A stretch of DNA of 60,710 bases, from assembly GCA_022484565.1 (NCBI GenBank), contig JAKVKZ010000012.1, positions 1 through 60,710 of the forward strand. The letters run 5' to 3'. Below the pieces are notes generated by a model. That model was given only the letters and a program-made list of their open reading frames with translations. It did no database searches and was not told where the DNA came from. Position 1 is the stretch's first letter, and every line of letters starts with the position of its first letter. Made by a program: the position numbers and the translations under genes. Positions 24,801 to 39,949 of this stretch are shown piece after piece. The stretch comes from Muribaculaceae bacterium (GTDB taxonomy: Bacteria > Bacteroidota > Bacteroidia > Bacteroidales > Muribaculaceae).

Positions 24801-26712
24801 GCTTGATGCCGACATGAAGTTGGGCTACGACGGCAAGAGCGTTTGGGGAGATGGCTTGGTCAATGTGCAGAACCTTTTCTATGATGAGAAAAAGGTTGGC
24901 GATGTGGGCATGGACGCGCATCTTGCCCTCAATCCTGCCACTGGCGCCACCACGTTGAATGCCAATATGAAGGTGAATGGGCACAAAGCTATGTTTGCGA
25001 TTGGTGTCCTTAATGATTCCACTCAGAAGAATCCTTTCAATGTGGCTTTGCAGCTCGACAGCTTCCCGCTTAACACCGCAAATCCGTTTATTCCTGATGG
25101 AATGGGGGAGATGAAGGGCTATCTTGATGGCGCTTTGTCGATGACTGGCTCTCCTTCATCGCCTATACTTAATGGCTTGGTTCAATGCAAGTCGGCAGCG
25201 CTGTATATGCCCGTTTTCGGCTCTAAACTCGATTTCTCAACTACCGAAGTGCCTATCGACAGCAGCGTTATTCATTTCAACAAATTCGGCATTTTGGGCA
25301 GCAATAAGAAGGCGGTCGAACTGAATGGCGTTGTGGATGTCAGGCAGCTCGATAATCCATACGTGAATTTGACGATGGTCGGCAATGATGTGCAGGTGGT
25401 TGATTCCAAGCAGAAGCGCAAGTCGGAGGTGTTTGGCCATGGCAACATCGACCTTGATGCCGTGGCGCGTGGCCACTTGAACGACTTGAATGTCAACGCG
25501 CGGCTCACGGTGCTTTCCGGCTCGAATGTCACTTATGTGATGCAGGATGAGGTCAGCGCTCTCACGAGTGGCACGACTGATAATATGGTGCGTTTCGTCA
25601 GTCATGCCGATTCTCTTAAGGCTTTGCAGGCCGACAGTCTTGCCGTTGCCGAGGTTGAGTCGGCGATGAATGTCAATGCGGTGCTTACCGTTCAGCCTGG
25701 AGTAATTGTGAATGTGTTCATTTCCAAAGATGGTGCCGACAAGATGCGCATCAATGGCAGCGGCATTCTCAATTACACCCAGAACACTTTGGGCGACACT
25801 CACTTCACTGGCCGTTACACTATTGATGAAGGTTTTGTGCGCTATTCCCCACCTTTGATTTCGCAGGTTCTGTTTGATTTCAATAGCGGCAGCTACATTT
25901 CATGGACTGGCGACCTGTTCAATCCTAATTTGCATATCGATGCGGTTGAAACGGTTAAGGCCAACGTTACTGAGCAAGGTCAGAATTCGCATCTTGTGGA
26001 TTTCCTCGTTTCTGTATCCGTCAGCAACACGCTTAATAATATGGGCTTGAATTTCGACCTATCGACTAACGAGGATATGACGATTCAGAATGAATTGCAG
26101 TCGATGTCGCCCGGACAGCGTTCAAATCAGGCCATGAACTTGCTCCTCTACAACACTTATACGGGTGCCAACACTTCTGCGTCAAGCAATCTCGCTGGCA
26201 ATCCGCTTTATTCGTTCCTCCAGTCGCAAATCAATACTTGGGCGGCCAATACCATTAAGGGGGTTGACTTGTCGTTCGGCATCAACTCCTACGATAAGTC
26301 ATCCAATGGCGAATCGGCAAATGCAATGAGCTATTCCTATCAGCTTTCCAAGTCGCTATTCAACGACCGCCTGAAAGTGGTTGTCGGCGGCAATTACAAC
26401 ACGAGTGCCGACAATGAGGAGAATTTTACTCAAAATCTGCTCAACGATGTGTCCTTTGAATATCTGCTCAATAGCAGTGGCAACATGTATGTGCGTTTGT
26501 TCCGTCATACTGGCTTTGAGAGTATCCTTGAGGGTGAAGTCACAGAGACTGGTGCTGGATTCGTTGTTAAGCGCAAAACGTCAACGCTTAAGCATTTGTT
26601 CCGCTTGCGGCATAAGGGTAATCGTAAAAAGTCGTCTGATTCTTCATCGGCTGCCGGCGTAATGCCTACAAAGGGAGGTGACGAGGACAAGACTAAAACA
26701 GTGAAGCAATGA
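21877..26712 (+). CDS. tamB: TamB-like translocation and assembly module protein
   Basis: This 1611-aa AsmA/TamB-family inner-membrane-anchored protein spans the periplasm as a long beta-taco groove that moves lipid or assists outer-membrane protein assembly. One N-terminal membrane helix (about 15-33) is followed by repetitive beta structure, and the C-terminal TamB/DUF490 domain (about 1200-1530) contains the family's FSGRYT-like region, here FTGRYTIDEG, and LDGALSMTGSPSSP. The only in-frame start near the membrane helix is TTG at 21877; upstream ATGs are out of frame or stopped. It overlaps tamL by 4 bp (ATGA), indicating coupling. The long acidic C-tail (GDEDKTKTVKQ) is unremarkable. Confidence 0.92.
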   Translation: MKHLIDNTIVRRSLKGLAITILVIILLPVLLYVPPVQNLIKNIAEKQVSKATGMDISIDRILLKFPLDLSVDGLKVLDTHRDTMVVAQNLTLTVQPLPLLDLDVKVGTAQLIEGHYRLLSSDSSMLLKAHVQLCKLKGSDINLDKNTISLDDGLLSGGDVSLVYDQSKVKPTPPDTTKSKGWHIVAHHVALEKLHYTMQMLPLIDKIDTYIGLANLDDGLVDMDNHKIHARCLAVDSVSAKYFTPTAEYIASHPVKPDTATVATTTTDTAKWTITSDSIRLTRINGIYAVSGATPGRGLDMNYIAGSDMNLSIDNFYNHGTSIVVPITHFTAAERCGLRIIEAYGTFSMDSLGMKADSFNLKTILSDIYLDGYLSNGFFDFLPDSRLRLKLNANLGLAEAGKLYPIYRPLLRKIPQANPLAIRLDIDGSPKRLNIEKATFNLPHYASAELRGQLLHPFNMKKMTGDIALRGVMNNLNFVKSGFLDASLRKQVNFPPLSVSGAAKFTGSAVAGNMKMALPGGKVAMAAKFNSLAKAYNVKFDFNQFPVHSILPLSTIGNVTAQGSVKGHGYDPLKKSTAIDAVMNIVGIRYNNQDYTNVSGTVKLVSNHFDVNMASANTNCDFTLKGNGVISNNHYIFDLTSDIRDLNLKALRFSPTTSNGQGHIVASGDFDLKRQIYMGSVDLTDFNWSLPDNYFYAPALSATFLSNDTVTMAKIDNNDFKLDFNSECGAKSFLKKLERSQKIALAEFKARSLNVDTLQKALPRFTCNVSIGQDNLVQQFIANTDLKFGSFNMNIINDSTIYMNGQALALQYGENAVDTINVFANEKNKDIAYNLHVGNRKGTLDDFAFLTMNGDISANNITAMLEQQNIKHVTGFRIGLNATLNDSAINVRLFPKNPLIGYREWEVNDSNFINYNYHNNHIGADLELRSDSSLVSLRTNHAADSKDEDIFVKMKGVQLAEWLNISPFAPPVKGVLDADMKLGYDGKSVWGDGLVNVQNLFYDEKKVGDVGMDAHLALNPATGATTLNANMKVNGHKAMFAIGVLNDSTQKNPFNVALQLDSFPLNTANPFIPDGMGEMKGYLDGALSMTGSPSSPILNGLVQCKSAALYMPVFGSKLDFSTTEVPIDSSVIHFNKFGILGSNKKAVELNGVVDVRQLDNPYVNLTMVGNDVQVVDSKQKRKSEVFGHGNIDLDAVARGHLNDLNVNARLTVLSGSNVTYVMQDEVSALTSGTTDNMVRFVSHADSLKALQADSLAVAEVESAMNVNAVLTVQPGVIVNVFISKDGADKMRINGSGILNYTQNTLGDTHFTGRYTIDEGFVRYSPPLISQVLFDFNSGSYISWTGDLFNPNLHIDAVETVKANVTEQGQNSHLVDFLVSVSVSNTLNNMGLNFDLSTNEDMTIQNELQSMSPGQRSNQAMNLLLYNTYTGANTSASSNLAGNPLYSFLQSQINTWAANTIKGVDLSFGINSYDKSSNGESANAMSYSYQLSKSLFNDRLKVVVGGNYNTSADNEENFTQNLLNDVSFEYLLNSSGNMYVRLFRHTGFESILEGEVTETGAGFVVKRKTSTLKHLFRLRHKGNRKKSSDSSSAAGVMPTKGGDEDKTKTVKQ

Positions 26713-29009
26713 CACATAATTATATATATAAAATATTATCTTTCGCTTTTGCCGTCGTTGTTCTTGTCGGCTGCTCCACCACGAGCAAGCTCGAAGAGGG
26801 TGAGGTGCTTTACAATGGCGTCAAGAAAATTGCTGTCAATCCGCCTGCCGGACAAAAAGTGGATGATGGTGTGAAATCCCAGATTCTTGAGGCTGTGAAT
26901 GTGAAGCCAAACAATAGCCTTTATTCGCCGTATCTGCGCACTCCGCTTCCTATAGGTCTGTGGGTATATAATCACATGAGTGATTCCGCGCACGGATTTA
27001 AGGGCTGGTTCTACAATAAGTTTATGGAGGAGCCTGTGCTTATCTCCGATGTTAAGCCTACCACACGTGTTGACATGATTCGTACGCTTCTCGACAATAA
27101 CGGTTATTTTGGTTCTGACGTCTCTTATCAGTTGCTTTACAGTGCAAATAAGAAGAAGGCAAAGATTTCTTATGCGGTTAATCTTACTGACCCGCGCGTT
27201 TTCTGTGCGATTCATTATCCTGATGGCACTCGCCCCGTTGACCATTACATTGATTCTTTGGCTCGCCGCAGCAAATATTTGCAACCCGGGCAGCGATATT
27301 GCACCGATTCGCTAAATTCTGCACGTATCGCTATTGTCAATGTCATGCGTAATAAGGGCTTTTTCTTCTTCCGCCCTGAATATATTCAGTATCTTGCCGA
27401 TAGCACTCTTGTTCCGGGCAAGATTGATTTGGGCATTGTTATCGACAAGACCATTCCGGCTGCATCTCTTGTGCGCTACAAGGAGGGTAATATTGTCACT
27501 ACAGTTTACCGTAATGCCCGTGGAAAGGGTGTTCCTGACAGTCTGATGACGGCGCGTGGCTTGGTTGTCCGCATGATGCCTGTCAAAATTCGCCCGTCGC
27601 TCATCCCGTCGTGCCTCAAGTTCCGTACCGGCCGTGTGTTTTCTGTCCGCGATATGGACCGCACGCAGCTTTATCTTTCCCGTCTTGGCATCTTCAGCGG
27701 AATCAGCATCAACACCACTCCCATGGATTCCCTCAATGGCTCTGATAAGATTGACATTGATGTGCAGTGCACTCTTGATAAGCCTTTGGAGGCTAAATTG
27801 GAGCTAAATGCCAAGTCTAAATCCAACAGCTATCTTGGCCCTGGCTTTTCTGCCAGTCTAACTGATAAAAACATGTTTGGCGGTGCTGAACAGCTCACAA
27901 CTGAAGTCACGGCTTCCTATGAATGGCAGACCGGTGCAGGCCGCAACCACAGTTCAAATTACGATTCCTACGAGTTCGGTGCGAGCAGCACTTTGGCTTT
28001 CCCGCGTCTGTTGGCTCCTAATTTCGTTGACCGCACTCGGCGTTACCTCAACTGGACAAAAATTGCTCTTTCAGGTGATTTTCTTAACCGTCCTGATTTC
28101 TTCAAGATGGCGAAGTTCGATTTGTCGTTCGGTTGGGAATGGCATGCCAACCGCTATTCGTTCAATCAGCTCATTCCGTTTAAGTTGACTTATACCAAAT
28201 TGATAACCACCACTGCAAAGTTCGATTCAGCTATGGTGGCCAATCCTGCCGTTGCGCTAAGTTTCCGTAACCAGTTCATCCCGCAGATGTCCTACACCTA
28301 CACTTACGATAAGGCGTTGAGCCGTTTCAACAATATCACTTGGACGAGTACAATTATGGAGGCTGGCAACATTTTCTCCGGCCTGTGGAGCCTTTGCGGC
28401 GATCATAACAATAAAAAGATGTTTGGCACGCCTTTCTCGCAATTCGTCAAGGTGCAGTCGCAGGTGGTATTTTCTCACCGCATTATGGATGCGCAGTATC
28501 TTGTCTCCCGACTTTTTGTCGGTGCAGCCCATGCCTATGGCAATTCATCTCAAGTGCCTTACACTGAGCAGTTCTACATTGGCGGTGCCAACTCCATCCG
28601 AGCTTTTCCGGTGCGTTCTGTAGGGCCTGGCAGTTATCATCCTTCCAGTGATGATACCAATGCCTACTATGATGAGACGGGTACTTTCCGCCTTGAAGCC
28701 AATTGCGAATATCGTTTCCCGATTTTTGGCTATCTGCATGGCGCAGCTTTCCTTGATGCCGGCAATATTTGGCTGCTGAAGCGTGATGACAGCCGTCCTG
28801 GAGGGTGCATCACCGACGGCAATTTTCTGAAAAACATTGCAATCGGCACAGGTCTTGGTTTGCGCTTCGATATGGATATGCTCGTCCTTCGTGCTGACCT
28901 CGGTATAGGCATCCATGCGCCTTACGACACTGGCAAAACTGGCTATTTCAACATGACTTCTTTCAAGAGCAGCCTTGCTTTCCATTTAGCCATCGGCTAT
29001 CCATTCTGA
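26709..29009 (+). CDS. tamL: TamL, lipidated BamA/TamA-family outer-membrane protein
   Basis: This 766-aa Omp85-superfamily protein has a lipoprotein signal (VVVLVGC, Cys22), as in Bacteroidetes TamL; proteobacterial TamA is not lipidated. It has POTRA-like repeats over about residues 25-380 and a 16-strand barrel C-terminal to that. The barrel carries the Omp85 motif region VPYTEQFYIGGANSIRAFPVRSVGPG (written 28554-28631) and ends LAFHLAIGYPF with terminal Phe. It forms an operon with tamB (4-bp overlap), consistent with a periplasm-spanning Tam complex. A weak stem (GTATC/GATAC, about 29070-29090) may end the transcript. Confidence 0.92.
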   Translation: MTHNYIYKILSFAFAVVVLVGCSTTSKLEEGEVLYNGVKKIAVNPPAGQKVDDGVKSQILEAVNVKPNNSLYSPYLRTPLPIGLWVYNHMSDSAHGFKGWFYNKFMEEPVLISDVKPTTRVDMIRTLLDNNGYFGSDVSYQLLYSANKKKAKISYAVNLTDPRVFCAIHYPDGTRPVDHYIDSLARRSKYLQPGQRYCTDSLNSARIAIVNVMRNKGFFFFRPEYIQYLADSTLVPGKIDLGIVIDKTIPAASLVRYKEGNIVTTVYRNARGKGVPDSLMTARGLVVRMMPVKIRPSLIPSCLKFRTGRVFSVRDMDRTQLYLSRLGIFSGISINTTPMDSLNGSDKIDIDVQCTLDKPLEAKLELNAKSKSNSYLGPGFSASLTDKNMFGGAEQLTTEVTASYEWQTGAGRNHSSNYDSYEFGASSTLAFPRLLAPNFVDRTRRYLNWTKIALSGDFLNRPDFFKMAKFDLSFGWEWHANRYSFNQLIPFKLTYTKLITTTAKFDSAMVANPAVALSFRNQFIPQMSYTYTYDKALSRFNNITWTSTIMEAGNIFSGLWSLCGDHNNKKMFGTPFSQFVKVQSQVVFSHRIMDAQYLVSRLFVGAAHAYGNSSQVPYTEQFYIGGANSIRAFPVRSVGPGSYHPSSDDTNAYYDETGTFRLEANCEYRFPIFGYLHGAAFLDAGNIWLLKRDDSRPGGCITDGNFLKNIAIGTGLGLRFDMDMLVLRADLGIGIHAPYDTGKTGYFNMTSFKSSLAFHLAIGYPF

Positions 29010-29129
29010 TAATTTATTTAGTTAATAACTTTACTCTAAGTGTAACTGAATGTTATTGAATGGATTGTAATGTATCTTCTCGGAGGATACTTTAAAGAAT
29101 ATTTCGTTTTTCTTTTATGCTATTTTTGT

Positions 29130-29137
29130 TACCTTTG
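29130..29137 (+). promoter_or_regulatory. -7 element of the TPR-sensor gene
   Basis: TACCTTTG lies 12-19 nt before the ATG; a second match, TATTTTTG, lies at 29121-29128. Confidence 0.6.
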
Positions 29138-29148
29138 TCCAATTCATA

Positions 29149-30807
29149 ATGATGAAAAACAGATTTTTTATATTTTTATTCCTTACCATGGTACTGTCGT
29201 TTCCATGCTGTACGCATTATGCCGATTCACGCCTTGTACGTGCAGATAGCCTAATGAATACACATCCAGACAGCGCCTATGCAATTTTAAAATCTATTAA
29301 GCCTGCTTCTTTACAAGATAAGGAAGGGAAAGCCTATTATGCCTTACTTTACACTCAAGCTCAGTATAAAAATTACGATTCTATCCGTTTCGATTCCCTT
29401 ATCAATATTGCCGTCAATTATTTCAGCGACAATCACGACCGTGAAAAGTACACCCGTTCACTCCTTTACAAAGGCGCAGCCTTTAGCGATATGGGAAACA
29501 AACTCGATGCGATGTATTATTATAAATGTGCTGAAGCCAATGCGGATAGTAAAGATTATGAACTTAAAGGGCAGATTAATATACGTATGGCTGAATTATA
29601 CAGAGAAATGGAAGTCGAAGATAATATGGATATGGAAAAATTTAAAGAGGCATTAAGGTATTACGAAAAAGCAGGTGATAAGAAATTCCAAATTGTTTGT
29701 CTAAATTCTATAGGTTCAATTTATCGGGGTTTCCAGATTGACAGTGCATATAAGTATTTATTTCACGCATTACAATTGTCAAGGGAAATTGGCGACAGCA
29801 GTAACATTTTTATTAATATTTCTTCAATATCAAGGGCTTATTGGGCAGACTCATTATTTAGTAAGTCAAAAGATTTGGCGGTTTTCGCAATCAAGAATGG
29901 CTCAAAATACCTGCCAGATCAAAATTGTTATTATGATGCCTGTACTAGTTATGCGGAATTAGGAAAAGCTGATTCTGCACTTTTCTATTTTAAGCAAATA
30001 AAGGCTGAAAACTCTGTTGAAGATTTGATTTCTCGCGAATTGGCCTTAATGGAAATAGAAAAGGCTAAAAAAAATTATAGATCTTCTTTGGACCATTTAC
30101 TTAAATTTGTAAATGCGTATAATCTCATCTCCCATAATCCTGTCCGTAATCAATTGCTGATTAGTGAAAAGCAATATGACAAACAAAAAAATGAATTAAG
30201 TCAGATAAAACTTCAGAAAGAGAAGCTAATACTATTCTTTTGCGCATTTTTGTTTATTATTGTATTGCTTGCTTGGATTCTAAAATATCGTCAAAGACAA
30301 AAAGATTATATAAATCTGATTGGCTTGATGCAAAGTGAAGCAAATGAATCAAAAGAATATTTATCAATACAACTTGAAAAAGATTCTCAATTGAAAGTTG
30401 CTGTTGAACAATTGATTGAAAATGTTAAATATCTTACGAATGCGTCGTATCAGTATAGTGATGTTCCCGCTGCTTTTATGGAATGCTTTAGGAAAAGAGT
30501 GAAGTTGACGAGATTTCAGGACAATATGTTGAATAATTTGAAATTGATATTGGATACTAATTATAATAATATAATTACCCGGCTATCAGCTGAATACCCT
30601 ATCCTTTCTAATGATGAATTAGATTTTATAAGTCTTATTTGTTATGGCTTTTCTTTTGCAGCAATTACTGTGTGTATGGGGTATTCAAATCCAAACTATG
30701 TAAACAATAAAAAAATTCGCATTGCCAAGAAAATGCAACTTAAACAACCTCTTAGACAATATCTGAACAATTTAATGGAAGAATCTATTTCGAATAATAG
30801 GCTGTAA
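29149..30807 (+). CDS. TPR lipoprotein with membrane helix and C-terminal HTH-like domain
   Basis: This 552-aa protein begins with a lipoprotein-like signal (Cys20/Cys21 in LSFPCCTHYADS). Residues about 30-340 are helical TPR repeats (for example GKAYYALLYTQAQYKNYDSI, ALRYYEKAGDKKFQIVCLNS). A membrane helix (LILFFCAFLFIIVLLAWIL, about 361-379) and a coiled coil follow, then a C-terminal domain with a LuxR/GerE-like helix-turn-helix pattern (LSNDELDFISLICYGFSFAAI, then VNNKKIRIAKKM, about 485-530). Such TPR-TM-HTH proteins are common in Bacteroidales and are thought to be one-component membrane regulators. The HTH is poorly conserved and may not bind DNA. AT-rich compared with tamL. Target unknown. 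Confidence 0.7.
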   Translation: MMKNRFFIFLFLTMVLSFPCCTHYADSRLVRADSLMNTHPDSAYAILKSIKPASLQDKEGKAYYALLYTQAQYKNYDSIRFDSLINIAVNYFSDNHDREKYTRSLLYKGAAFSDMGNKLDAMYYYKCAEANADSKDYELKGQINIRMAELYREMEVEDNMDMEKFKEALRYYEKAGDKKFQIVCLNSIGSIYRGFQIDSAYKYLFHALQLSREIGDSSNIFINISSISRAYWADSLFSKSKDLAVFAIKNGSKYLPDQNCYYDACTSYAELGKADSALFYFKQIKAENSVEDLISRELALMEIEKAKKNYRSSLDHLLKFVNAYNLISHNPVRNQLLISEKQYDKQKNELSQIKLQKEKLILFFCAFLFIIVLLAWILKYRQRQKDYINLIGLMQSEANESKEYLSIQLEKDSQLKVAVEQLIENVKYLTNASYQYSDVPAAFMECFRKRVKLTRFQDNMLNNLKLILDTNYNNIITRLSAEYPILSNDELDFISLICYGFSFAAITVCMGYSNPNYVNNKKIRIAKKMQLKQPLRQYLNNLMEESISNNRL

Positions 30808-31098
30808 TATTACTTAAATTGTCGTTTATTATTATGAATTTGTTAATGGTATAAAAATATTTTTGTAAATTATTGATTTTTAGATGTCTAATTTTAAATT
30901 GGTGTGCTTGAGATGTTGTTGTTTATTGGATATAATTGTATATCTTTACAATCAATAATACGAGTGTTACTTTGAAATGTTACAGTAGGCGAAGTTAAGT
31001 GTGATGGCACATGAATTTTTTAAACTGTTTCTACTTGTATCTACACGGTTCGATTTTTGTCTTGTTTTAAATTTATTAATAAATAAAACTCATTGGTA
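30808..31098. other. 290-bp intergenic region
   Basis: AT-rich with no open frame of note. No convincing consensus -7 was found close to the next start (31099), and no recognisable terminator. Nothing else seen. Confidence 0.4.
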
Positions 31099-32049
31099 AT
31101 GAAAAAATCAAACTTTATTTTTTTTGCCGTTCTTTTTTTCAGCTGGCTTCCTCTTCAGGCTGCCGATTATGAATATGTCCCTACAGTTCGCGAAGGAGTA
31201 GAGTGGGGTTATTATGTTTCCCAAGCATATTACAGCCAAAAGCCAAATACTTATTATCGTGTGTGCTTTAAGGGTGATACTTCAATAAATAATATGTCGT
31301 ACAAGAAATGTTATTGTTATCGTACATGTACATTTGATTCCGACAGTGCAAAGGTCATTTCGTTTATGCGTGAGGAGAACAAAAGGGTCTATATGCGCCC
31401 TAATCCTAATGTTACTAATGATTTCATGAACAATATAGAGACTTTATATTATGATAATGATAAGGAATATTGCCTCTACGATTTCAATTATAACGTTGGC
31501 GACACAATTAAGGCAATATATGCTCTAAATGGCAATGTAGTGACAGAAATTGATTCCGTGTTGGTCAATGGCAAGTTGCGCAAACTGTTCAAATCGGGCA
31601 ATTTTCGTACTTTCATGGAGGGCATTGGCCCTGTTGACGAAAATGGAGGCGACATAATGTTTCCATTTCCGGCTCAGTTAACTGGTGGAGCACAAATAGC
31701 GACGCAGTTCAATTATGAACATGCGGTTGGCACAAATTATGCCGATTATCGTGCCGATGCACCCGACAATAATGATCCCTGCTTTATTATTCTTGGCGTT
31801 TCGCCTGTCAGTGAAAATTTCAGCACAATGAAGCTTGTTCAGAGTGGCTCTGTTTTAACCGTCACACTGCCAACCAATGATTTTGGAGGTATTGAACTTA
31901 TTGACATTTCAGGTCGCATTATAGCGCAAAAAATCATTAATGGCACAAACCAAACCACAATTTCAACTTTGGGCATTGCTCCCGGTGTATATGTTGTGAT
32001 TGCAACTTCGCCACGCACATCTGCAAATGCGAAAATTTTGCTTCACTGA
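31099..32049 (+). CDS. Secreted protein with T9SS-type C-terminal sorting domain, otherwise unknown
   Basis: This 316-aa exported protein has a signal peptide ending around LPLQA (about residue 22). The mature part is Tyr/Cys-rich (YYRVCFKGDTS, KKCYCYRTCTF) and beta in character, with no recognised domain. The last ~75 residues look like a Por secretion type A domain (IELIDISGRIIAQKI, LGIAPGVYVVIAT, ending NAKILLH). It follows the TPR sensor gene in the same orientation at about 290 bp and is closed by its own terminator at 32069-32099. Possibly a T9SS client; function unknown. Confidence 0.65.
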   Translation: MKKSNFIFFAVLFFSWLPLQAADYEYVPTVREGVEWGYYVSQAYYSQKPNTYYRVCFKGDTSINNMSYKKCYCYRTCTFDSDSAKVISFMREENKRVYMRPNPNVTNDFMNNIETLYYDNDKEYCLYDFNYNVGDTIKAIYALNGNVVTEIDSVLVNGKLRKLFKSGNFRTFMEGIGPVDENGGDIMFPFPAQLTGGAQIATQFNYEHAVGTNYADYRADAPDNNDPCFIILGVSPVSENFSTMKLVQSGSVLTVTLPTNDFGGIELIDISGRIIAQKIINGTNQTTISTLGIAPGVYVVIATSPRTSANAKILLH

Positions 32050-32068
32050 TTCAGTAATATAATTTATA

Positions 32069-32099
32069 GGGCAAAGGAATCAAAGTCTTTGCCCTTTTT
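32069..32099 (+). terminator. Terminator of the T9SS-sorted protein gene
   Basis: Stem GGGCAAAG/CTTTGCCC with a 10-nt loop followed by TTTTT. Confidence 0.85.
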
Positions 32100-32180
32100 A
32101 TAATGTCAATCCGCTAATTATTTCTAAGGTCTTCAGATTATATTCCATAATTGACGTTGAAATCGAAAATTCCATTTTAA

Positions 32181-32212
32181 TTTGTTTTTGCGCTCACCTT
32201 GCATTATCTTTG
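32181..32212 (+). promoter_or_regulatory. Consensus promoter of tatA-tatC
   Basis: -33 TTTG (32181-32184), 20-nt spacer and -7 TATCTTTG (32205-32212). This is the best match to the Bacteroidetes primary-sigma consensus in the window. Confidence 0.85.
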
Positions 32213-32233
32213 TCCCAATAAAATCGAATTGTT

Positions 32234-32479
32234 ATGCTTATAAATATTTTGAACACTCTGCCGCTGATTTTCAATATTGGAACAGGTGAGTTAATTGCTA
32301 TTGTGATTGTGATTTTGCTCCTTTTCGGTGGTAAAAAAATTCCTGAACTGATGAAGGGAATAGGCAAAGGCGTTCGCAGTTTCAAGACTGGCATGAACGA
32401 GGTTGAGGATGAGATTAATAAGCCGGCTGATGACAAAAAGGCTGATGCTAAGGAAGAAAAATCATCTGAATCTAAGTAG
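32234..32479 (+). CDS. tatA: Sec-independent translocase subunit TatA
   Basis: TatA forms the protein-conducting part of the Tat system, which exports folded proteins across the inner membrane. The 81-aa product has one membrane helix (about 18-33), the hinge motif [11 protein letters not shown], an amphipathic helix ([18 protein letters not shown]) and a charged tail. It starts about 22 nt after a consensus promoter and is followed by tatC. No tatB is present, as is usual in this phylum. Confidence 0.95.
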
Positions 32480-32544
32480 AAATTTTCCCAGTTGCAATAA
32501 ATTATTCCGTGTGGTGCTGGCTACATGGGAAATGCCATATTAGG

Positions 32545-33405
32545 GTGGAATCTAACAAAAAGGAAGATTTGGAGGAAATGCCGTTCTGGGGGCATGTTGA
32601 GGCTTTGCGGAATGTGCTAATCAAGATTGCGGTGGTGCTGGTGGTGTTTGCCATCGGCTTTTTCTGTGTCATGCCTTATCTTTTCGACAATGTTATTCTT
32701 GCTCCGTGCCGCAGCGATTTTGTGCTTTATCGCCTGTTTGAGAAGATGACACGTCTGTTTCCCATTCTTCCGCAATTTATCAGTGGCGATTTCACTGTGA
32801 AGCTCATCAATATCCAGCTTGCCTCGCAGTTCTTCATTCACATGTCGTCATCTTTTTGGCTTGCTGTGGTATTTGCTTTTCCTATACTGATTTATTTTAT
32901 TTGGGGCTTTGTCAGCCCTGCTCTATATGAGCGTGAGAAGCATGGCGTGCGCCGTGCGTTTGTGCTCGGCAACGTTATGTTTTTTATCGGTGTGGCTGTT
33001 GGCTATTTTATCGTGTTCCCCATCACGTTGCGATTTCTTGCCGGCTATCAGGTGAGCACCATGATTCCTAATCAGGTCTCACTTGATTCATATATGGACA
33101 CTTTCATGATGCTTATTTTCATTATGGGCATCATTTTCGAGTTGCCGCTTCTGGCATGGGCGCTCGGTGCTATCGGAATTCTTCATCGTGAATTTTTCAG
33201 GAAATATCGCCGTTATGCTATTGTCATTCTGCTTGTCCTTGCTGCTGTGATTACTCCAACTGGCGACCCGTTCACTCTCTCAGTCGTTTTCCTGCCGATT
33301 TATGCGCTATATGAGCTTAGCGCGATTTTCGTCAAGCCGAAGCCCAAAGAAGAAGATGATGCGGACGACGCTGACGATGAGGAATTGCAGCACGACGCTC
33401 AATAG
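32545..33405 (+). CDS. tatC: Sec-independent translocase subunit TatC
   Basis: TatC is the twin-arginine signal receptor. It has six membrane helices, the N-terminal FWGHVEALRN motif (family F-x-H-L/V-x-E-L-R) and the conserved periplasmic and cytoplasmic loops (FVSPALYEREK, ITPTGDPFT). The 286-aa product is near the usual length, with an acidic C-tail (EEDDADDADDEE). Start uncertain: GTG at 32545 is preferred; ATG at 32578 just before PFWGH is the main alternative and GTG at 32509 is less likely. It follows tatA in one operon. Confidence 0.93.
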   Translation: MESNKKEDLEEMPFWGHVEALRNVLIKIAVVLVVFAIGFFCVMPYLFDNVILAPCRSDFVLYRLFEKMTRLFPILPQFISGDFTVKLINIQLASQFFIHMSSSFWLAVVFAFPILIYFIWGFVSPALYEREKHGVRRAFVLGNVMFFIGVAVGYFIVFPITLRFLAGYQVSTMIPNQVSLDSYMDTFMMLIFIMGIIFELPLLAWALGAIGILHREFFRKYRRYAIVILLVLAAVITPTGDPFTLSVVFLPIYALYELSAIFVKPKPKEEDDADDADDEELQHDAQ

Positions 33406-33489
33406 CCATTGAAAACACCTTTTTTGCCTTCATGTTATAATTATTCGCCTAAAATGGCGTTATTCTTTATATTGCGCAACTTTTAAAGA

Positions 33490-35901
33490 ATGAAATTCCA
33501 TAAAATAATTATATCTCTCTTCGGCTTTTGCCTTTTCATGGCTCTACCTTTATCTGCTCAAGTGAAGATTTCGGGTAAGGTTACTGACGAAAAGAACGAC
33601 CCTATTGAATTTGCCACTGTACGCATTGCAGGCACTGCTATCGGCGTAAGTACCGACACAAAAGGTGATTATTCCCTGTCGGTTCCTGAGCGCGACACCA
33701 TTATGGTGATTGTCAGCTGCATCGGTTATAGCGATGTTAAGCGGCAGTTTATTCGTGCTAAAGGTGCTATCACCCTCAATCCGCGTCTTTATGAGAAAAC
33801 TCATCAGTTAAAGGAAGTTCAGGTAACTGAATTCAAAAAGCAGACCAACCAGATGCAGACCATCGATGCCAAAGCCTCGAAACTTACTCCTGATGCGGCT
33901 GGTGGCAGCATTGAATCGGTCCTTACCACTATGGCTGGCGTCAGTTCCAAGAATGAGATGAGTACGCAATATATGGTGCGTGGCGGCACTTATGATGAGA
34001 ATAGCGTGTATATCAATGGCATAGAAATTTATCGTCCGCAACTTATCACTTCCGGTCAGCAGGAGGGTTTGAGCATTATCAATCCTGATATGGTCGGCTC
34101 TGTGGCATTCTCCACTGGCGGATTCAATGCTGAGTATGGCGATAAGATGTCGTCGGTACTCGATATAAAATATCGTGAGCCTGAAGCCTTTGAAGGCGCT
34201 TTTTCGGCAAGTCTTATGGGTGGAAGTTTCTCCATTGGCCAGCACAGCAAAAAGTTCTCGCAACTCCATGGTGTGCGTTACAAGCGTAATGCCTCCTTGC
34301 TCGGCTCATTGGAAACAAAAGGCGAATACGACCCTCAGTATTTCGATTATCAGACTTCAATGGAGTATAAGCCAACTTCCAAATTCACCGTCTCTTTCCT
34401 CGGCAATGCCGCTATCAATAATTATCGATTCAAGCCCGAAACACGTTCCACAAGTTTTGGCACAATGTTTAATGCCAAGCAATTCACTGTTTATTTTGAC
34501 GGGCAGGAGAAGGATAAGTTTGAAACATATTTCGGCGCATTGTCGATGAATTACCGCCTCAACAAAAGCACGGATTTCACTTGGCAGAATTCAGGCTACC
34601 TCACCAATGAGCTTGTCAGCTACGACATTCAGGGCGAATATTGGCTTGATGAGGCCGGTGGCACTGACAATTCAGGCGCTACAGTCGGCGGAGAGCTTGG
34701 GGTAGGGCGTTATCGTCAGCATAGCCGCGACCGTTTGAAGGCAAGTGTGCTTGCCACTGCATTGAAGGGCAACACATCGCTCAGCAATAATAATTTCTCT
34801 TATGGCGTTTCGCTTCAGCATGAAAAGATTTTCGACCGCACACGCGAATGGGAAACCCGCGATTCTGCCGGCTATTCCTTGCCTCACACTGGTGATGGAG
34901 TTAACGTGATTTATAGTCTCACTTCACGTCAGGACCTTTCATCCAACCGCTTTGCCGCATATCTTCAGGACGCCTACAAAATCATGAGTAATTCCGGCAT
35001 GTTGACCATTAATGGCGGTGTCCGAGCTTCATATTGGGACTATAATAAGGAATTCCTTTTCAGCCCGCGTGCCAGCTTGGGCTTTGTGCCGGCTTCCAAC
35101 GAGAAACTCGCTTTCCGTTTTGCTGCCGGTCTTTACTATCAGGCACCATTCTATAAGGAATACCGCCGAAACATGGTGGATGCCGACGGCAACACTTATG
35201 TGGAACTTAACAGCGATATAAAGTCGCAGCGCAGTGTGCATTTCATCCTTGGCGGTGACTACACTTTCCGTAAACTCGACCGTCCCTTCAAATTATCGGC
35301 TGAGCTGTATTATAAGAATATCTCCAATCTTAATCCTTATGAGATTGATAACTTGAAGGTCGTTTATTCAGGAACTAATAATTCCAAGGGTTATGTCACA
35401 GGGCTTGATTTCAAGTTTTTCGGCCAGTTCGTTGAAGGCACTGATTCATGGATAAGTTTTTCATTGATGAAGACTCAGGAAACCCTCAATGGGGTTAAAG
35501 TTCCGCTCCCTACCGACCAGCGTTACAGCGTAGCCATGTATTTCACTGATTATTTTCCTAAATATCCTAAGGTGAAGTTCAGTCTTAAAGGCATCCTTTC
35601 CGATGGTCTGCCTATGACTGCGCCTCATGTCACCCGCGATGTGTCGTATTTCCGTGCTCCGGCTTACAAACGCCTTGATATTGGCGTAGCTTATGAACTT
35701 GTTGGTGGTGATGAAAACAAGCCTGATAACTTCCTGAGGCATTTCAAGAGCGTTTGGCTTGGCTTGGATGTGTTCAATTTATTTGATATTTCTAATGTCA
35801 GCGGCTATTATTGGGTTACTGATGTCCACAACATTCAGTATGCCGTTCCTAACTATCTCACCCGCCGCCAGCTGAATGTTCACCTTTCAGTGAATTTCTG
35901 A
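33490..35901 (+). CDS. TonB-dependent receptor with carboxypeptidase-regulatory-like domain
   Basis: This 803-aa outer-membrane receptor starts with a signal peptide ending MALPLSAQ (about residue 23). A CarboxypepD_reg-like domain (KISGKVTDEKNDPIEFATV, about 25-100) is followed by a plug (SIESVLTTMAGVSSKNEMSTQYMVRGG, about 140-250, with YINGIEIYRP and FNAEYGD) and a barrel ending LNVHLSVNF with terminal Phe. No SusD partner or surface lipoprotein is adjacent. It lies downstream of tatC (84 bp) and is closed by a terminator overlapping its stop. Substrate unknown. Confidence 0.92.
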   Translation: MKFHKIIISLFGFCLFMALPLSAQVKISGKVTDEKNDPIEFATVRIAGTAIGVSTDTKGDYSLSVPERDTIMVIVSCIGYSDVKRQFIRAKGAITLNPRLYEKTHQLKEVQVTEFKKQTNQMQTIDAKASKLTPDAAGGSIESVLTTMAGVSSKNEMSTQYMVRGGTYDENSVYINGIEIYRPQLITSGQQEGLSIINPDMVGSVAFSTGGFNAEYGDKMSSVLDIKYREPEAFEGAFSASLMGGSFSIGQHSKKFSQLHGVRYKRNASLLGSLETKGEYDPQYFDYQTSMEYKPTSKFTVSFLGNAAINNYRFKPETRSTSFGTMFNAKQFTVYFDGQEKDKFETYFGALSMNYRLNKSTDFTWQNSGYLTNELVSYDIQGEYWLDEAGGTDNSGATVGGELGVGRYRQHSRDRLKASVLATALKGNTSLSNNNFSYGVSLQHEKIFDRTREWETRDSAGYSLPHTGDGVNVIYSLTSRQDLSSNRFAAYLQDAYKIMSNSGMLTINGGVRASYWDYNKEFLFSPRASLGFVPASNEKLAFRFAAGLYYQAPFYKEYRRNMVDADGNTYVELNSDIKSQRSVHFILGGDYTFRKLDRPFKLSAELYYKNISNLNPYEIDNLKVVYSGTNNSKGYVTGLDFKFFGQFVEGTDSWISFSLMKTQETLNGVKVPLPTDQRYSVAMYFTDYFPKYPKVKFSLKGILSDGLPMTAPHVTRDVSYFRAPAYKRLDIGVAYELVGGDENKPDNFLRHFKSVWLGLDVFNLFDISNVSGYYWVTDVHNIQYAVPNYLTRRQLNVHLSVNF

Positions 35902-35930
35902 AAGCGGTGAACATTCAAATCGCTTTTTTT
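35901..35930 (+). terminator. Terminator of the TonB receptor gene
   Basis: Stem AAAGCG/CGCTTT with a 14-nt loop followed by a T-run, between convergent genes. Confidence 0.75.
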
Positions 35931-35961
35931 CCGCTCGAGTTTTTCATCCTACATATACATA

Positions 35962-36363
35962 CTATTCTTCCCTAATCATAGCTGGCTCGATGAGTTCATC
36001 TTCGCCAACTTGGGCACCGGAATTATATGCGTTCGGGAACCATAGGTCCAGTAATTGCTCTGTGTGCCATTCTATTTCAGGAGTGATGTTTCTCTTGACC
36101 TTTTTGTAGGTGTACATTATCACTCCCAGCTCATCTAAATGCCCTGTCACAGGGTGGTCTTCCGATGGAATTAAGTCAATTGGCAGTACGAGATACGACA
36201 TTGCCGCCACAATGGAAATCTTGTCCTTGGTGGGCGTACTCGGCTCCCTAAGCACGAAATACAGCTGAAGCACCGGCCTCATGCTGATTTTGCCTACACT
36301 CTGGGCCACGCGGCAAAGTTTGTCGCGCAGCTCCGTGTAGTTGATGTAAATAGGTGTGTTCAT
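35962..36363 (-). CDS. DUF1232 (YkvA-like) protein
   Basis: This 133-aa protein contains the DUF1232 core, PTKDKISIVAAMSYLVLPIDLIP followed by HLDELGVIMYTYKKV, spanning about residues 42-90 and usually a short membrane-associated helix pair. Flanks are not recognised. The start is 5 bp after the stop of the YbjN-like gene, so the two are probably one operon. DUF1232 proteins have no firm function; neighbouring genes suggest a shared unknown role. Confidence 0.8.
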   Translation of the reverse strand: MNTPIYINYTELRDKLCRVAQSVGKISMRPVLQLYFVLREPSTPTKDKISIVAAMSYLVLPIDLIPSEDHPVTGHLDELGVIMYTYKKVKRNITPEIEWHTEQLLDLWFPNAYNSGAQVGEDELIEPAMIREE

Positions 36364-36368
36364 AGCAG

Positions 36369-36929
36369 TTAATTTTCGTCGTCAGTGTCATCGTCATCAG
36401 CGGGCATTATCAGGCTCTCGGTGGAGATGTCCTGAATCATGTCCTCAAAATTCTTTGAATAGGCAGCCTGCAATAAATCTGTAACATTGCTTTCAATTGA
36501 ATTTGTGCAGTCTGATAGTGCGCAAAACAGTATTTCACTGTTTATTGCCATGTGGTCAACATTTACCAGCATTGAGCTTGTCAGTATGTTTTTCTCCTCT
36601 TCAAGATACAGCGTCGCTCCGTTGCTGCAGTTGTTGATTTTGTTGATTTTCGTCAGCAGTGTCACATTCCGTTCTACTGGAAAATTCATGTCGAAGAATG
36701 CAACGACTCTGAAGAAACTTTTCGCGTCGTTGATTTCAATGAATACTTCCATTCCGATGCGTTCGCCGCGTAACTGAAAACCGATGGCTGTGACTTCATC
36801 GTCGTCCATTAGGATGCGGTAATAATAGTCATGCTCATCCAGTTCTTGCCGTATGAAGGTTGCTACTGGCTTGTAGCTGTCGAAACCTTCATTTTCTTGT
36901 GTGCATTTTTTTGACGTTTTCTTATTCAT
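36369..36929 (-). CDS. YbjN-like protein of unknown function
   Basis: This 186-aa protein has a predicted alpha/beta layout like YbjN or type III secretion chaperone folds: strand pairs (YYYRILMDDDEVTAIGF, GMEVFIEIND, SFFRVVAFFDMNF), helix (VERNVTLLTKINKIN), strands (GATLYLEEE, ILTSSMLVNVD) and an end helix. The C-terminus is strongly acidic (ADDDDTDDEN). The assignment is by fold pattern only. It is led by a ~100-nt leader with a conserved hairpin, promoter at 37035-37042. It is paralogous to 37111-37521. Gene 35962-36363 follows 5 bp after its stop. Confidence 0.65.
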   Translation of the reverse strand: MNKKTSKKCTQENEGFDSYKPVATFIRQELDEHDYYYRILMDDDEVTAIGFQLRGERIGMEVFIEINDAKSFFRVVAFFDMNFPVERNVTLLTKINKINNCSNGATLYLEEEKNILTSSMLVNVDHMAINSEILFCALSDCTNSIESNVTDLLQAAYSKNFEDMIQDISTESLIMPADDDDTDDEN

Positions 36930-36963
36930 AATTTTAATTTTTTAGTTTTGCAATTGTGCGTGT

Positions 36964-37172
36964 TCGCTTAAAAAATAAGTGTTATAATAGGGTATCCCCT
37001 TTGTCGGGGGATAATGTTCAGTTCATCTATACAGCAAAGTTATATGCTATATTTTTTTCGTTCTGCTCTTTTGTACGATAATCTTTCTGTTTTTTTTAAT
37101 GTTTTGTGTATTAGCTAATTACTTTTCTGTTAAATTGAAAGCTTTTGTTAAATTTAGTACGATTTTTCTGGC
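36964..37172. repeat. Leader repeat R1 (about 205 bp, pairs with 37557-37765)
   Basis: The segment is about 80% identical by eye to 37557-37765. On the minus strand it carries a -7 element TAACTTTG and a hairpin with arms TATCCCC/GGGGATA. Its distal end covers the last 20 codons of the truncated paralogue. On the plus strand two GTACGAT motifs lie 84 bp apart. Direct orientation, 593 bp offset. Confidence 0.85.
37035..37042 (-). promoter_or_regulatory. -7 element of the YbjN-like gene
   Basis: The minus strand reads TAACTTTG; leader to the ATG at 36929 is about 100 nt and contains the TATCCCC hairpin. Confidence 0.6.
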
Positions 37173-37521
37173 GTTTTATTGCCATGCCGTCAATATATAC
37201 CAGCATTGAACTTGTCAGCGTGTGTCTATCTTCTTCACTGGGCCAAATTGCTCCAGTGTTGCTTTTCATCAGCAGTGCCATATTCCGCTCTATTGGATAT
37301 CTTTGGCCAAAAAATGCAGCGACTTTGAAATAGCCTTTACTATCCTTGGTTCCAAGGAATTTATCCAATTCGGCATGGTTGCTGCATAACCATGAACCTA
37401 TAATTGGAATTAGAAATTTGTTCCAGTAGGCTCTTCGATTGCATTCACGTTCATATTCTGCATGCTCTTCATCTTCTGCGATTATCTTGCGGAAGTATAT
37501 TAAAGAAGTCATTAAATTCAT
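37111..37521 (-). pseudogene. Truncated paralogue of the YbjN-like gene
   Basis: This 136-codon frame aligns with the intact YbjN-like gene at 36369-36929: GYFKVAAFFGQRYPIERNMALL versus SFFRVVAFFDMNFPVERNVTLL, and HTLTSSMLVYIDGMAIK versus NILTSSMLVNVDHMAIN. Similarity stops at residue 116 exactly where leader repeat R1 begins, and the last 20 residues (RQKNRTKFNKSFQFNRKVIS) are encoded by repeat DNA. The ~60 C-terminal residues of the intact copy, including the acidic tail, are missing. It has its own leader repeat (R2), so it may still be expressed as a shortened protein. Called a pseudogene for the truncation; the frame itself is open. Confidence 0.65.
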
Positions 37522-37556
37522 AACTGAAATTTTTGAATATGTTTAATAGCTGTCTG

Positions 37557-37765
37557 TCGTTTAAAAAATAATAGCTGTTATAAGTGTATCCCCCTTTCGG
37601 GGGATAAGGTTCAGTTCATCGATACAGCAAAGTTATATGCTATATTTTTTCCGTTCCGTACTTTGGTACGATAATTTTTCTGCTATTTTTTAATGCTCTG
37701 TATTTAAGTTAATTATCTTTGTACTAAATTGAAAACTTTTCTTAAATTGCGTACGATTTTATGGC
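37557..37765. repeat. Leader repeat R2 (about 205 bp)
   Basis: Partner of 36964-37172. It contains a perfect hairpin TATCCCCC/GGGGGATA, a minus-strand -7 TAACTTTG (37628-37635) that would drive the truncated paralogue, a 5-bp palindrome CGTAC/GTACG and two GTACGAT motifs 85 bp apart. It begins 11 bp past the stop of the 397-aa gene. Confidence 0.85.
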
Positions 37766-37775
37766 GATTACCATA

Positions 37776-38969
37776 TTATTTGTCTTTATCGTCCTTAAAT
37801 TCATCAAGTATTTCCTCTGGAATATCAATATCATTCGGGTCTATTTTCAGCCTTCCTTTCATGCCCTTTATTATAAATGATTCCGATATGCTTTCCAATA
37901 TCAATTTTGTGATGCTTTTCTTGATGTCCTGTCGGCATTTTCGTAGTCCGCTGGTTTTGTTCTTGCTGTCTTTGCTTGAGTTTATAAGTTTGTCGAATTT
38001 TGCCGACGCGCTTGTTTCTCGTTCGCCGTAAACCATGTAATAAACTTTGCAGAAGACCTTTCTACAGCGATTTATCTTAAAGCCTTCCTCGTTTATGTTA
38101 TGCTTCAAGTTGTAGAGCAAGTGTATTAAATATATCACGATTGATTCATGCAGTGAAAACTTTACCAGTTCTTTATCCGCTGAGCCTTTCTTTTGCAGAA
38201 ATATTTTGTAACGACTCTTGTACATTGGTGCCGAGGAGTCTATACTGACTATCACTTTATATTCCTTATTGCTCTCAGCTTTCCCTTTGTCCTCAATTTC
38301 CCTAACTGCCTCGGATATTCTATTATAGACAAATTCTTTATTACATTTTGTGCCATTGTTCTGGACATATTCGAGTATTGTAGAAGCCAGCTGTTCTATC
38401 ATCTTATCCCTGTCCGTGGCCGGAATTTGCAATTGATTTCTTTTGCCATTTCTGCTCCATGGGGTAGCACGTGCTGCCATAAGCGGTCGGATTGCAATAG
38501 TCGGCATAGAATATGGGTATACTGCTCTGCTGGACAATTGCTTTCCCCTGTCGAATATGCTCCGCTTTTTAGGCGCTATCAGTGAAAATAACCTCAGCAG
38601 TTTAGCATAGGTATGCGGTGCTTTTTCAGATAAATATTTCAACTTCCATTCAATGATTTGAGTGGAAATCTCACCATTGTATGAAAACACATTGCGTAAT
38701 AGCTCGACAAAAGTTGTTACTTTTCTTGTTCTGTTATAACTCCGTAAGCTTCTGTCTGAGCTGTAGGAACAGCCGACCGTAATGACTGTAATAAGGTTTG
38801 ATACTGCAATGTCCAATTTCTTGATGTCGATGCCTGAAATGAACATAGGTTTGTGCGTCCCTGTTACAACAACATAGGGCTTGGCGGAATGATTACACCG
38901 TCGACAAATCGCTTGATTTCTTTTTTTTCTTGAAGCAAAAAAATGCTTTTTTTTGTGTGAAGTAGGCAT
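37776..38969 (-). CDS. 397-aa protein of unknown function
   Basis: I do not recognise this protein. From the ATG at 38969 it starts MPTSHKKKHFFASRKKRNQ, very basic, with a single CRRC motif and His close by (possible half zinc site). A middle region has VIVSIDSSAPMYKSRYKIFLQKK, and the C-terminal ~150 residues are helical and charged (Cys in RCRKVFCKVYY), ending in an acidic segment (PEEILDEFKDDKDK). An upstream in-frame ATG at 39002 is possible but adds a hydrophobic run. The gene heads the minus-strand cluster with the YbjN-like genes. No membrane helix or signal peptide. No transposase catalytic pattern was found. A DNA- or RNA-binding role is only suggested by charge. Confidence 0.6.
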   Translation of the reverse strand: MPTSHKKKHFFASRKKRNQAICRRCNHSAKPYVVVTGTHKPMFISGIDIKKLDIAVSNLITVITVGCSYSSDRSLRSYNRTRKVTTFVELLRNVFSYNGEISTQIIEWKLKYLSEKAPHTYAKLLRLFSLIAPKKRSIFDRGKQLSSRAVYPYSMPTIAIRPLMAARATPWSRNGKRNQLQIPATDRDKMIEQLASTILEYVQNNGTKCNKEFVYNRISEAVREIEDKGKAESNKEYKVIVSIDSSAPMYKSRYKIFLQKKGSADKELVKFSLHESIVIYLIHLLYNLKHNINEEGFKINRCRKVFCKVYYMVYGERETSASAKFDKLINSSKDSKNKTSGLRKCRQDIKKSITKLILESISESFIIKGMKGRLKIDPNDIDIPEEILDEFKDDKDK

Positions 38970-39002
38970 AGTTTTAACATTAATAACGTAAATAATAACC
39001 AA

Positions 39003-39233
39003 TCAGTAAAATAATAAATGACCTATCAGTAAAATGTTCAAGTAGGATTACTGCACGAGTAATGTGAACGTGCCCTTTAGGAGCATACTATTAGGGCGCT
39101 AAAAGCACCTCTTTTTCCGTAACAAAGTACGGAAATTTTTTGCAATCTTGCAAGAAAATCGTGTTAAATTTTCTCTAAATTAACAAGATTACACAATTTT
39201 TTCTGTGTTTTTCCGTTAAGGCTTTTTAAGTGG
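39003..39233. other. Intergenic region with strong inverted repeat
   Basis: At 39114-39135, arms TTTCCGTA and TACGGAAA enclose ACAAAG (8-bp perfect inverted repeat). On the minus strand its centre reads CCGTACTTTG, close to the palindrome found in R2. It could be an operator or terminator. The rest is AT-rich with no further gene seen. Confidence 0.5.
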
Positions 39234-39920
39234 CTAATATTCAGGATATGCCATTCTGTCGTCTTGGTTCACTGCGTCAATGTAGTCGAGAAAATAGCTG
39301 TTTATTACGTATGAACTCTTATTGTACGATGTGGATTCATACCTTCTTTTCAGGTCGGGATAATTGTCAAGCAGATTAAGCAGCCTTCCTTTGTCAATTT
39401 TTACTGCCATTTTCAGTTTCGGGTCAAGTATGTAGAATAGTCCGTCGTAGTCGTCATCGTTCACCACACCGCTTGAAATGCTGTAGTCGTCATCACCTCC
39501 GCTCAAAATTTCACCAAGAATTCCAAGTGCCACAGCGCCTGATGAAGTGTGGTCGGATGCAAAATATTTGAAGTAAATCACTTTATCGGTAAGATATAGT
39601 GGAATATATCCTCGGAATATGCAGTCGCTTGCAAAATTTCTGTTAAGGTATTCATCGTTCACAAGCAGCATCGAGTCGCTGCACGAAATTGCTACTATGC
39701 TGTCCCTCATTTGCTTCATCAGCTTCTTGGTGGGCTTGTAGTCACTGCTGATTTTATATGAGAATGGGCTTATTTGGTCAAAGTTGATGCTGTCGATGGT
39801 GTCACCGGTGTTATACATCGCGTCGTGCCACGATTTATGCACTATCACCGTGTCGGCGAATATCGGCGACACTATCAAGATGGCTAAAACTATTATTATC
39901 GATTTTGTCTTTGTCAACAT
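39234..39920 (-). CDS. Exported protein of unknown function
   Basis: This 228-aa protein has a signal peptide (MLTKTKSIIIVLAILIVSPIFA). The mature part contains VIVHKSWHDAMYNTGDTIDSINF near its start, an Asp-rich Gly region (GEILSGGDDDYS) around 137 and a C-terminal end DDRMAYPEY. I recognise no domain; the opening KSWHD-x-M pattern reminds me of some uncharacterised Bacteroidetes families but I cannot name one reliably. The start at 39920 was chosen because a -7 (TAACTTTG, 39942-39949) sits just upstream and overlaps a longer TTG start. Single gene. Confidence 0.7.
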   Translation of the reverse strand: MLTKTKSIIIVLAILIVSPIFADTVIVHKSWHDAMYNTGDTIDSINFDQISPFSYKISSDYKPTKKLMKQMRDSIVAISCSDSMLLVNDEYLNRNFASDCIFRGYIPLYLTDKVIYFKYFASDHTSSGAVALGILGEILSGGDDDYSISSGVVNDDDYDGLFYILDPKLKMAVKIDKGRLLNLLDNYPDLKRRYESTSYNKSSYVINSYFLDYIDAVNQDDRMAYPEY

Positions 39921-39941
39921 TTTTCTTCTTTTTCTTTGCGA

Positions 39942-39949
39942 CAAAGTTA
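39942..39949 (-). promoter_or_regulatory. -7 element of the exported unknown protein gene
   Basis: The minus strand reads TAACTTTG, 22-29 nt upstream of the ATG at 39920. Confidence 0.6.

Follow-up and report, generated by a model that had tools for sequence, protein, structure and literature searches.

The two similar leaders, the truncated gene and the intact YbjN-family gene studied here together record one event of tandem duplication, and this conclusion is well supported. They lie in a 60,710-nucleotide contig of a Muribaculaceae bacterium, the whole of which we call the window, and belong to a group of four open reading frames that form one run on the minus strand. In the direction of transcription these encode a protein of 397 amino acids (37776-38969), a truncated YbjN-like paralogue of 136 amino acids (37111-37521), an intact YbjN-family, TY-chaperone-like protein of 186 amino acids (36369-36929) and, beginning 5 nt after it, a DUF1232 protein of 133 amino acids (35962-36363). 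An earlier sequence-only reading of this DNA had recognized the run as an uncharacterized group containing a YbjN-family gene. Profile searches bear this out, with the 186-amino-acid protein scoring 23.9 bits against Pfam PF10722 (above the gathering cut-off of 22) and the DUF1232 protein 35.7 bits against PF06803 (cut-off 23). All four reading frames are present as described, with the one correction that the DUF1232 gene lies just beyond the segment that had been delimited.

Location of the gene group

The source genome, which is 82.5% complete, is the only one of its genus in our comparison, and within that comparison the gene group is an accessory, species-specific insertion. In the closest relative (G023), whose TonB receptor is 73% identical, the space from that receptor to PfkB is occupied, in place of the group, by what we read from the sequence as a GDPD-like gene. 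The proteins of the group are absent from the fetched flanks of 13 further relatives. The GC content of the group is 0.39, compared with 0.44 for the window. In the window, the interval from the TonB receptor to PfkB encodes no AAA ATPase, GTPase or protease.

Other features are found in the same interval. A gene for a DUF6563 protein (PF20201, E = 2e-7) at 39234-39944 lies between the group and PfkB, and the flanks fetched from relatives do not show it. Upstream of the 397-amino-acid gene, at 38980-39040, there is an imperfect direct repeat (TTTACTGATAGGTCATTTATTA and TTTACTGATTGGTTATTATTT) that is a possible operator. At 39114-39135 a terminator scan finds a terminator-like inverted repeat, TTTCCGTAACAAAGTACGGAAA, followed by a run of T on the plus strand.

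A tandem duplication of leader and gene

Leader 1 (36964-37172, minus strand) supplies the intact YbjN-like gene with its promoter region and 5' UTR, and leader 2 (37557-37765, minus strand), which begins just past the stop codon of the 397-amino-acid gene, does so for the truncated paralogue. They had been described as about 80% identical over 205 bp, and this likeness is real. Global alignment gives 176 identical positions of 205 with 8 gap positions, and the local score of 273.5 is far above the mean of 64.6 and maximum of 90.5 obtained with 500 dinucleotide shuffles. Two ungapped repeat families fall within the pair, one of 134 nt (36964-37097 with 37557-37690, 81% identity) and one of 75 nt (37092-37166 with 37686-37760, 80%). 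The likeness is nevertheless not confined to the leader, but extends through the gene behind it. The homology starts at 37774, just past the stop codon of the 397-amino-acid gene, and in the other copy at 37185, at the end of the truncated gene. From there it is collinear through the promoter, the 5' UTR, the start codon and about 130 codons of the YbjN-like gene, and stops where leader 1 begins. Collinear homology of leader and gene that ends at the next leader indicates one tandem duplication of a unit comprising the leader and the 5' part of the gene.

The junction of the duplication can be placed at 37174-37185 on the minus strand, with the sequence ATGGCAATAAAA. It shares microhomology with ATGGTAAT (37774-37767), upstream of leader 2, and with ATGGCAAT in the intact gene, such that ATGGYAAT is present at both parental sites. 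The microhomology extends over 7 of 8 positions, and an equally good match is found in 0.36% of random position pairs. The likeness of the truncated ORF to the intact gene is lost exactly at the start of leader 1, between GACGGCATGGCAATAAA and ACGCCAGAAAAATCGTAC. In this well-supported account, illegitimate recombination at the ATGGYAAT microhomology copied in tandem a unit consisting of promoter, 5' UTR and some 130 codons of the YbjN-like gene, leaving leader 2 and the truncated paralogue placed upstream of leader 1 and the intact gene.

Two leaders of one regulon might instead have been acquired separately, with no duplication of the gene, as could be suggested by the leaders being more alike than the coding parts. 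This is already contradicted by the coding homology, which runs collinearly and, on both sides, directly adjoins the leader. Moreover the leader pair is all that is recovered by a genome-wide search for further copies, the check that the sequence-only reading had proposed, and no third copy exists in this genome. Separate acquisition is thus extremely improbable.

The duplicated leaders are direct repeats in the same orientation, spaced by 593 bp and containing stretches of perfect identity. Such repeats of about 200 bp might destabilize the 593-bp unit, with recombination deleting or re-amplifying it and so varying expression from cell to cell. The orientation, spacing and identical stretches would all permit this, but the repeats have diverged to 80-86% identity. 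This divergence speaks against frequent exchange after they arose by duplication, and we regard such instability as very unlikely. A phase-variable invertible promoter was rejected, as the leaders are direct repeats and the inverted pairs are all short (13-17 nt) and chance-like.

The truncated paralogue has the character of a decaying copy. It is 43% identical to the intact protein (E = 1.3e-11), or 44% over 78 aligned codons, and does not match PF10722. The homology ends around 37175, and the last 20 or so residues are read into leader 1. Over the 78 aligned codons the identities at codon positions 1, 2 and 3 are 0.69, 0.65 and 0.68, so there is no codon-position bias, and dN/dS is 0.81 (NG86) or 0.90 (YN00). 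Together these values indicate a gene that is close to neutral. Could the truncated gene nonetheless code for a short protein that functions, perhaps by partnering or inhibiting the intact one? The 136-amino-acid frame is still open, its promoter is kept, and the copies agree well over the segment TLTSSMLV..D.MAI. Against this stand the near-neutral substitution pattern, several indels, the loss of the C-terminal 55 or so residues and a C-terminus made by read-through of leader DNA, and we find such a function quite unlikely.

The promoter core and the 5' UTR hairpin

Each leader carries one -7 box of sequence TAACTTTG on the minus strand, at 37035-37042 in leader 1 and 37628-37635 in leader 2, which conforms to the TAnnTTTG consensus of Bacteroidetes primary-sigma promoters (PMC7366714). 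The leaders differ from such promoters in that TTTG is absent near -33 upstream of both boxes; what lies upstream instead is an ATCGTAC site, whose end is 30 nt from the -7 box. A second ATCGTAC site lies further up by 84 nt in leader 1 (37157-37163 and 37073-37079, spanning 37073-37163) and by 85 nt in leader 2 (37751-37757 and 37666-37672, spanning 37666-37757), about eight turns of the helix. ATCGTAC pairs at similar spacing occur nowhere else in the genome. The same promoter and the same pair of motifs (GTACGAT on the opposite strand) had been noted in both leaders, and both observations stand. The paired sites are possible activator sites; the leader would act mainly as a promoter. Its -7 box has no accompanying -33 box, and an activator that occupies both ATCGTAC sites, which lie in phase, probably assists it.

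Between the leaders, the core that begins with the -7 box and extends to the hairpin agrees at 56 of 59 positions, while the rest of the leader is 80-83% identical. Third codon positions in the gene behind are identical at 53 of 78 (Fisher p around 3e-4, computed with 56/60 for the core). The leader is therefore better conserved than the gene it precedes, as had been proposed: the gene decayed, but the promoter core ahead of it was retained. This is in keeping with a second promoter at work for the operon downstream. In this single pair of leaders, gene conversion may alternatively have caused the identity of the core.

A hairpin with the stem UAUCCCC..GGGGAUA is present in both 5' UTRs. In leader 1 (36993-37013, minus strand) it has a 7-bp stem and a 7-nt loop (ΔG = -9.9 kcal/mol, z = -2.1), and in leader 2 (37587-37606, minus strand) an 8-bp stem and a GAAA loop (ΔG = -14.9 kcal/mol, z = -3.9). 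It had been placed about 50 nt from the promoter, but begins around 21 nt after the -7 box.

The conservation of this hairpin despite sequence drift had been taken to suggest function at the RNA level. It might be a regulatory element, such as a riboswitch, an attenuator or a protein-binding leader, that controls the YbjN-like genes. The predicted folds are more stable than shuffled sequences for the full 5' UTRs (z = -2.2 and -2.7) as for the hairpins themselves, the leaders rank second and fourth in stability of 32 leaders with TAnnTTTG in about 100 kb, and the core has changed less than the third codon positions. However, since the leaders are paralogous by one tandem duplication they constitute one observation, and not independent evidence of conservation. 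The stem sequence is identical in the two leaders, with no compensatory change. The hairpins are not followed by a U-tract and were not called by the terminator scan. There is no Rfam match for the window at E ≤ 1, nor any on the larger clusters described below. Copies of the leader or hairpin are absent from the rest of the genome and from the related loci fetched. On these grounds control at the RNA level is unproven, the argument from drift is not supported, and a regulatory RNA is unlikely. A riboswitch or other structured leader RNA finds no support in an Rfam match or in covariation of the stem, and a transcription attenuator would need a U-tract that the stem lacks. Under the promoter reading, a hairpin at the 5' end would more probably protect or position the mRNA than act as a switch.

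The YbjN-like and DUF1232 proteins

The intact YbjN-like protein is also matched by a profile of YbjN relatives from the family (E = 2e-20), and its subfamily is present in 17 of 397 genomes of the family, including the source genome. It is longer than the typical relatives of 145-147 amino acids and has an acidic C-terminal tail, and the gene adjoins those for the 397-amino-acid and DUF1232 proteins, unlike its neighbors in the relatives. A search at the level of close relatives found no YbjN protein in phages, viral contigs or genome contigs. YbjN proteins have a class I type III secretion chaperone fold and act through protein-protein contacts (PMC5398634), and the TY-Chap families are predicted to be peptide-binding chaperones in conflict systems (PMC9503650). 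AlphaFold models of window proteins have pLDDT values of 43 and 32, the latter for the intact YbjN-like protein, which are too low for the fold to be read. The YbjN-like protein would be a peptide-binding partner resembling type III chaperones, most likely with the 397-amino-acid protein as its client.

The DUF1232 protein is 33-35% identical to DUF1232 proteins of the larger clusters described below. The DUF1232 profile also matches a gene of this type elsewhere in the same genome, unlinked to the group (E = 1.9e-16), and this counts against a link to the clusters. A phage origin was rejected, as PHROG 14750 matches but the phage matches are weak (33% identity at best). We found no literature linking YbjN with DUF1232. 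The DUF1232 protein may serve to tie a small accessory locus to the membrane.

A domain shared with larger gene clusters

The 397-amino-acid protein has no Pfam, NCBIfam, PADLOC or PDB match of note; Pfam matches to MtrH and DUF4847 were below cut-off and were rejected. It is absent from phages, plasmids and viral contigs, and no homologue at E ≤ 0.001 is found outside its own genome in 297 genomes of the family or 393 of the order. The sole homologue at this threshold is a distant paralogue of 432 amino acids on contig C11 of the same genome. This leads in turn to proteins of 428 and 455 amino acids in Candidatus Liminaster caballi (G686) and one of 427 amino acids in Candidatus Colivivens equi. 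A C-terminal domain recurs in these proteins, for which we have coined the name X domain. In the 397-amino-acid protein it extends over residues 250-390 approximately, about a third of the chain. A profile built from the four other X proteins (427-455 amino acids), with the 397-amino-acid protein left out, finds that protein with E = 7.9e-9 at profile positions 314-454, and no other non-member among 783 ORFs. Similarity within the domain is about 20-24%; outside it the N-terminal two thirds are unmatched, with no significant alignment of the N-terminal half to the other X proteins. Profile searches of the PDB with the X and YbjN alignments gave nothing credible.

The four other X proteins, rare like their domain, are encoded in larger clusters. 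That on C11 of the source genome (L023, 4857-13917) encodes two HExxH proteins, metallopeptidase-like by motif only, the X protein, a protein with a sub-threshold likeness to sigma region 4, a fusion of kinase-like and AAA domains and two YbjN/TY-Chap-like proteins. Long, similar secreted proteins with repeated modules (804 and 665 amino acids; L023 1580-3994 and 14632-16629) flank this cluster on both sides. In G686 the cluster on contig C17, cut upstream by the contig end, has a GTPase, two HExxH proteins, the X protein, a PP2C phosphatase, a YbjN pair and a WG-repeat protein. The one on contig C63 (positions 1547-13721 of L053, the stretch 22000-36000 of that contig) has an AAA protein with Sel1 repeats, DUF1232, a CHAT protease (E = 3e-46), the X protein, a sigma-region-4-like protein, two further AAA proteins, making three AAA ATPases, a YbjN pair and a protein similar to that with WG repeats on C17. 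In Candidatus Colivivens equi we find DUF1232, zinc-ribbon proteins, a GTPase-like protein, HExxH proteins, the X protein and a PP2C-like protein.

YbjN-type genes thus occur in three of the four clusters (C11 and both of G686) and DUF1232 in two (C63 and Candidatus Colivivens equi). Under simple assumed gene densities the probability of such linkage by chance is about 1e-6 to 2e-4 for the YbjN-type genes and 0.002 to 0.02 for DUF1232. The sequence-only reading had let its case depend on the three proteins occurring together elsewhere and on the hairpin being conserved in relatives. The outcome is mixed. The hairpin was not found in the related loci fetched, and at E ≤ 0.001 the 397-amino-acid protein has no homologue outside its own genome among the family and order genomes searched; yet its X domain recurs beside YbjN-type and DUF1232 genes in other clusters.

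The window group has the same three protein types as these clusters, and is probably a pared-down version of them. It differs in having no ATPases, proteases or other enzymes, and in its YbjN protein. The YbjN pairs of the clusters give sub-threshold TY-Chap1 (PF22551) and YbjN matches, and a profile made from them matches no protein of the window. The window protein groups instead with the free-standing YbjN proteins of the family, and so is not an orthologue of the cluster pairs.

In joining AAA ATPases or a GTPase, proteases (CHAT and HExxH), a kinase or PP2C phosphatase and chaperone-type proteins, the X clusters resemble the NTP-dependent conflict systems of Kaur et al. 2020 (PMC7159879) and the TY-chaperone systems (PMC9503650). 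Unlike the former, they contain no MoxR-vWA pair and no GAP1 protein that we recognize, and the window group lacks the MoxR-vWA or DO-GTPase-GAP1 pair of the ternary systems. The GTPase of L031 reaches Gtr1_RagA, and DO-GTPase2 only below cut-off. YbjN, DUF1232 and CHAT are not mentioned in PMC7159879. We found no published description of X-domain clusters in the literature searched, and that of L053 appears to be undescribed.

Discussion

The best explanation as a whole combines an origin by duplication, an accessory locus of chaperone type and a leader that is chiefly a promoter, and we think it rather probable. By this account the truncated copy drifted with no constraint at the protein level while both promoters were kept, giving the intact YbjN-DUF1232 operon a double promoter. 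A collinear second copy of promoter and gene that breaks off at a microhomology junction is what is expected of a tandem gene duplication that includes a promoter, and the one unusual feature is that the promoter is better preserved than the gene. In itself the pair of leaders is ordinary, the scar of a duplication.

A more ambitious reading would see in the 397-amino-acid protein, its chaperone of YbjN type and the DUF1232 protein the compact offshoot of a conflict or protein-quality-control system of Bacteroidales that has yet to be described. That system would be defined by the X-domain protein and would include AAA ATPases, CHAT or metalloproteases, a kinase or phosphatase and TY-chaperones, with the duplicated leader setting the dose of the chaperone. 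We entertain this reading tentatively, as possible but somewhat doubtful. The X-domain clusters themselves offer the most useful lead; there are four in Bacteroidales, one of them in the source genome. Should these be a single system, the YbjN proteins, long known as stress regulators with no clear partner, would gain a client that can be tested.
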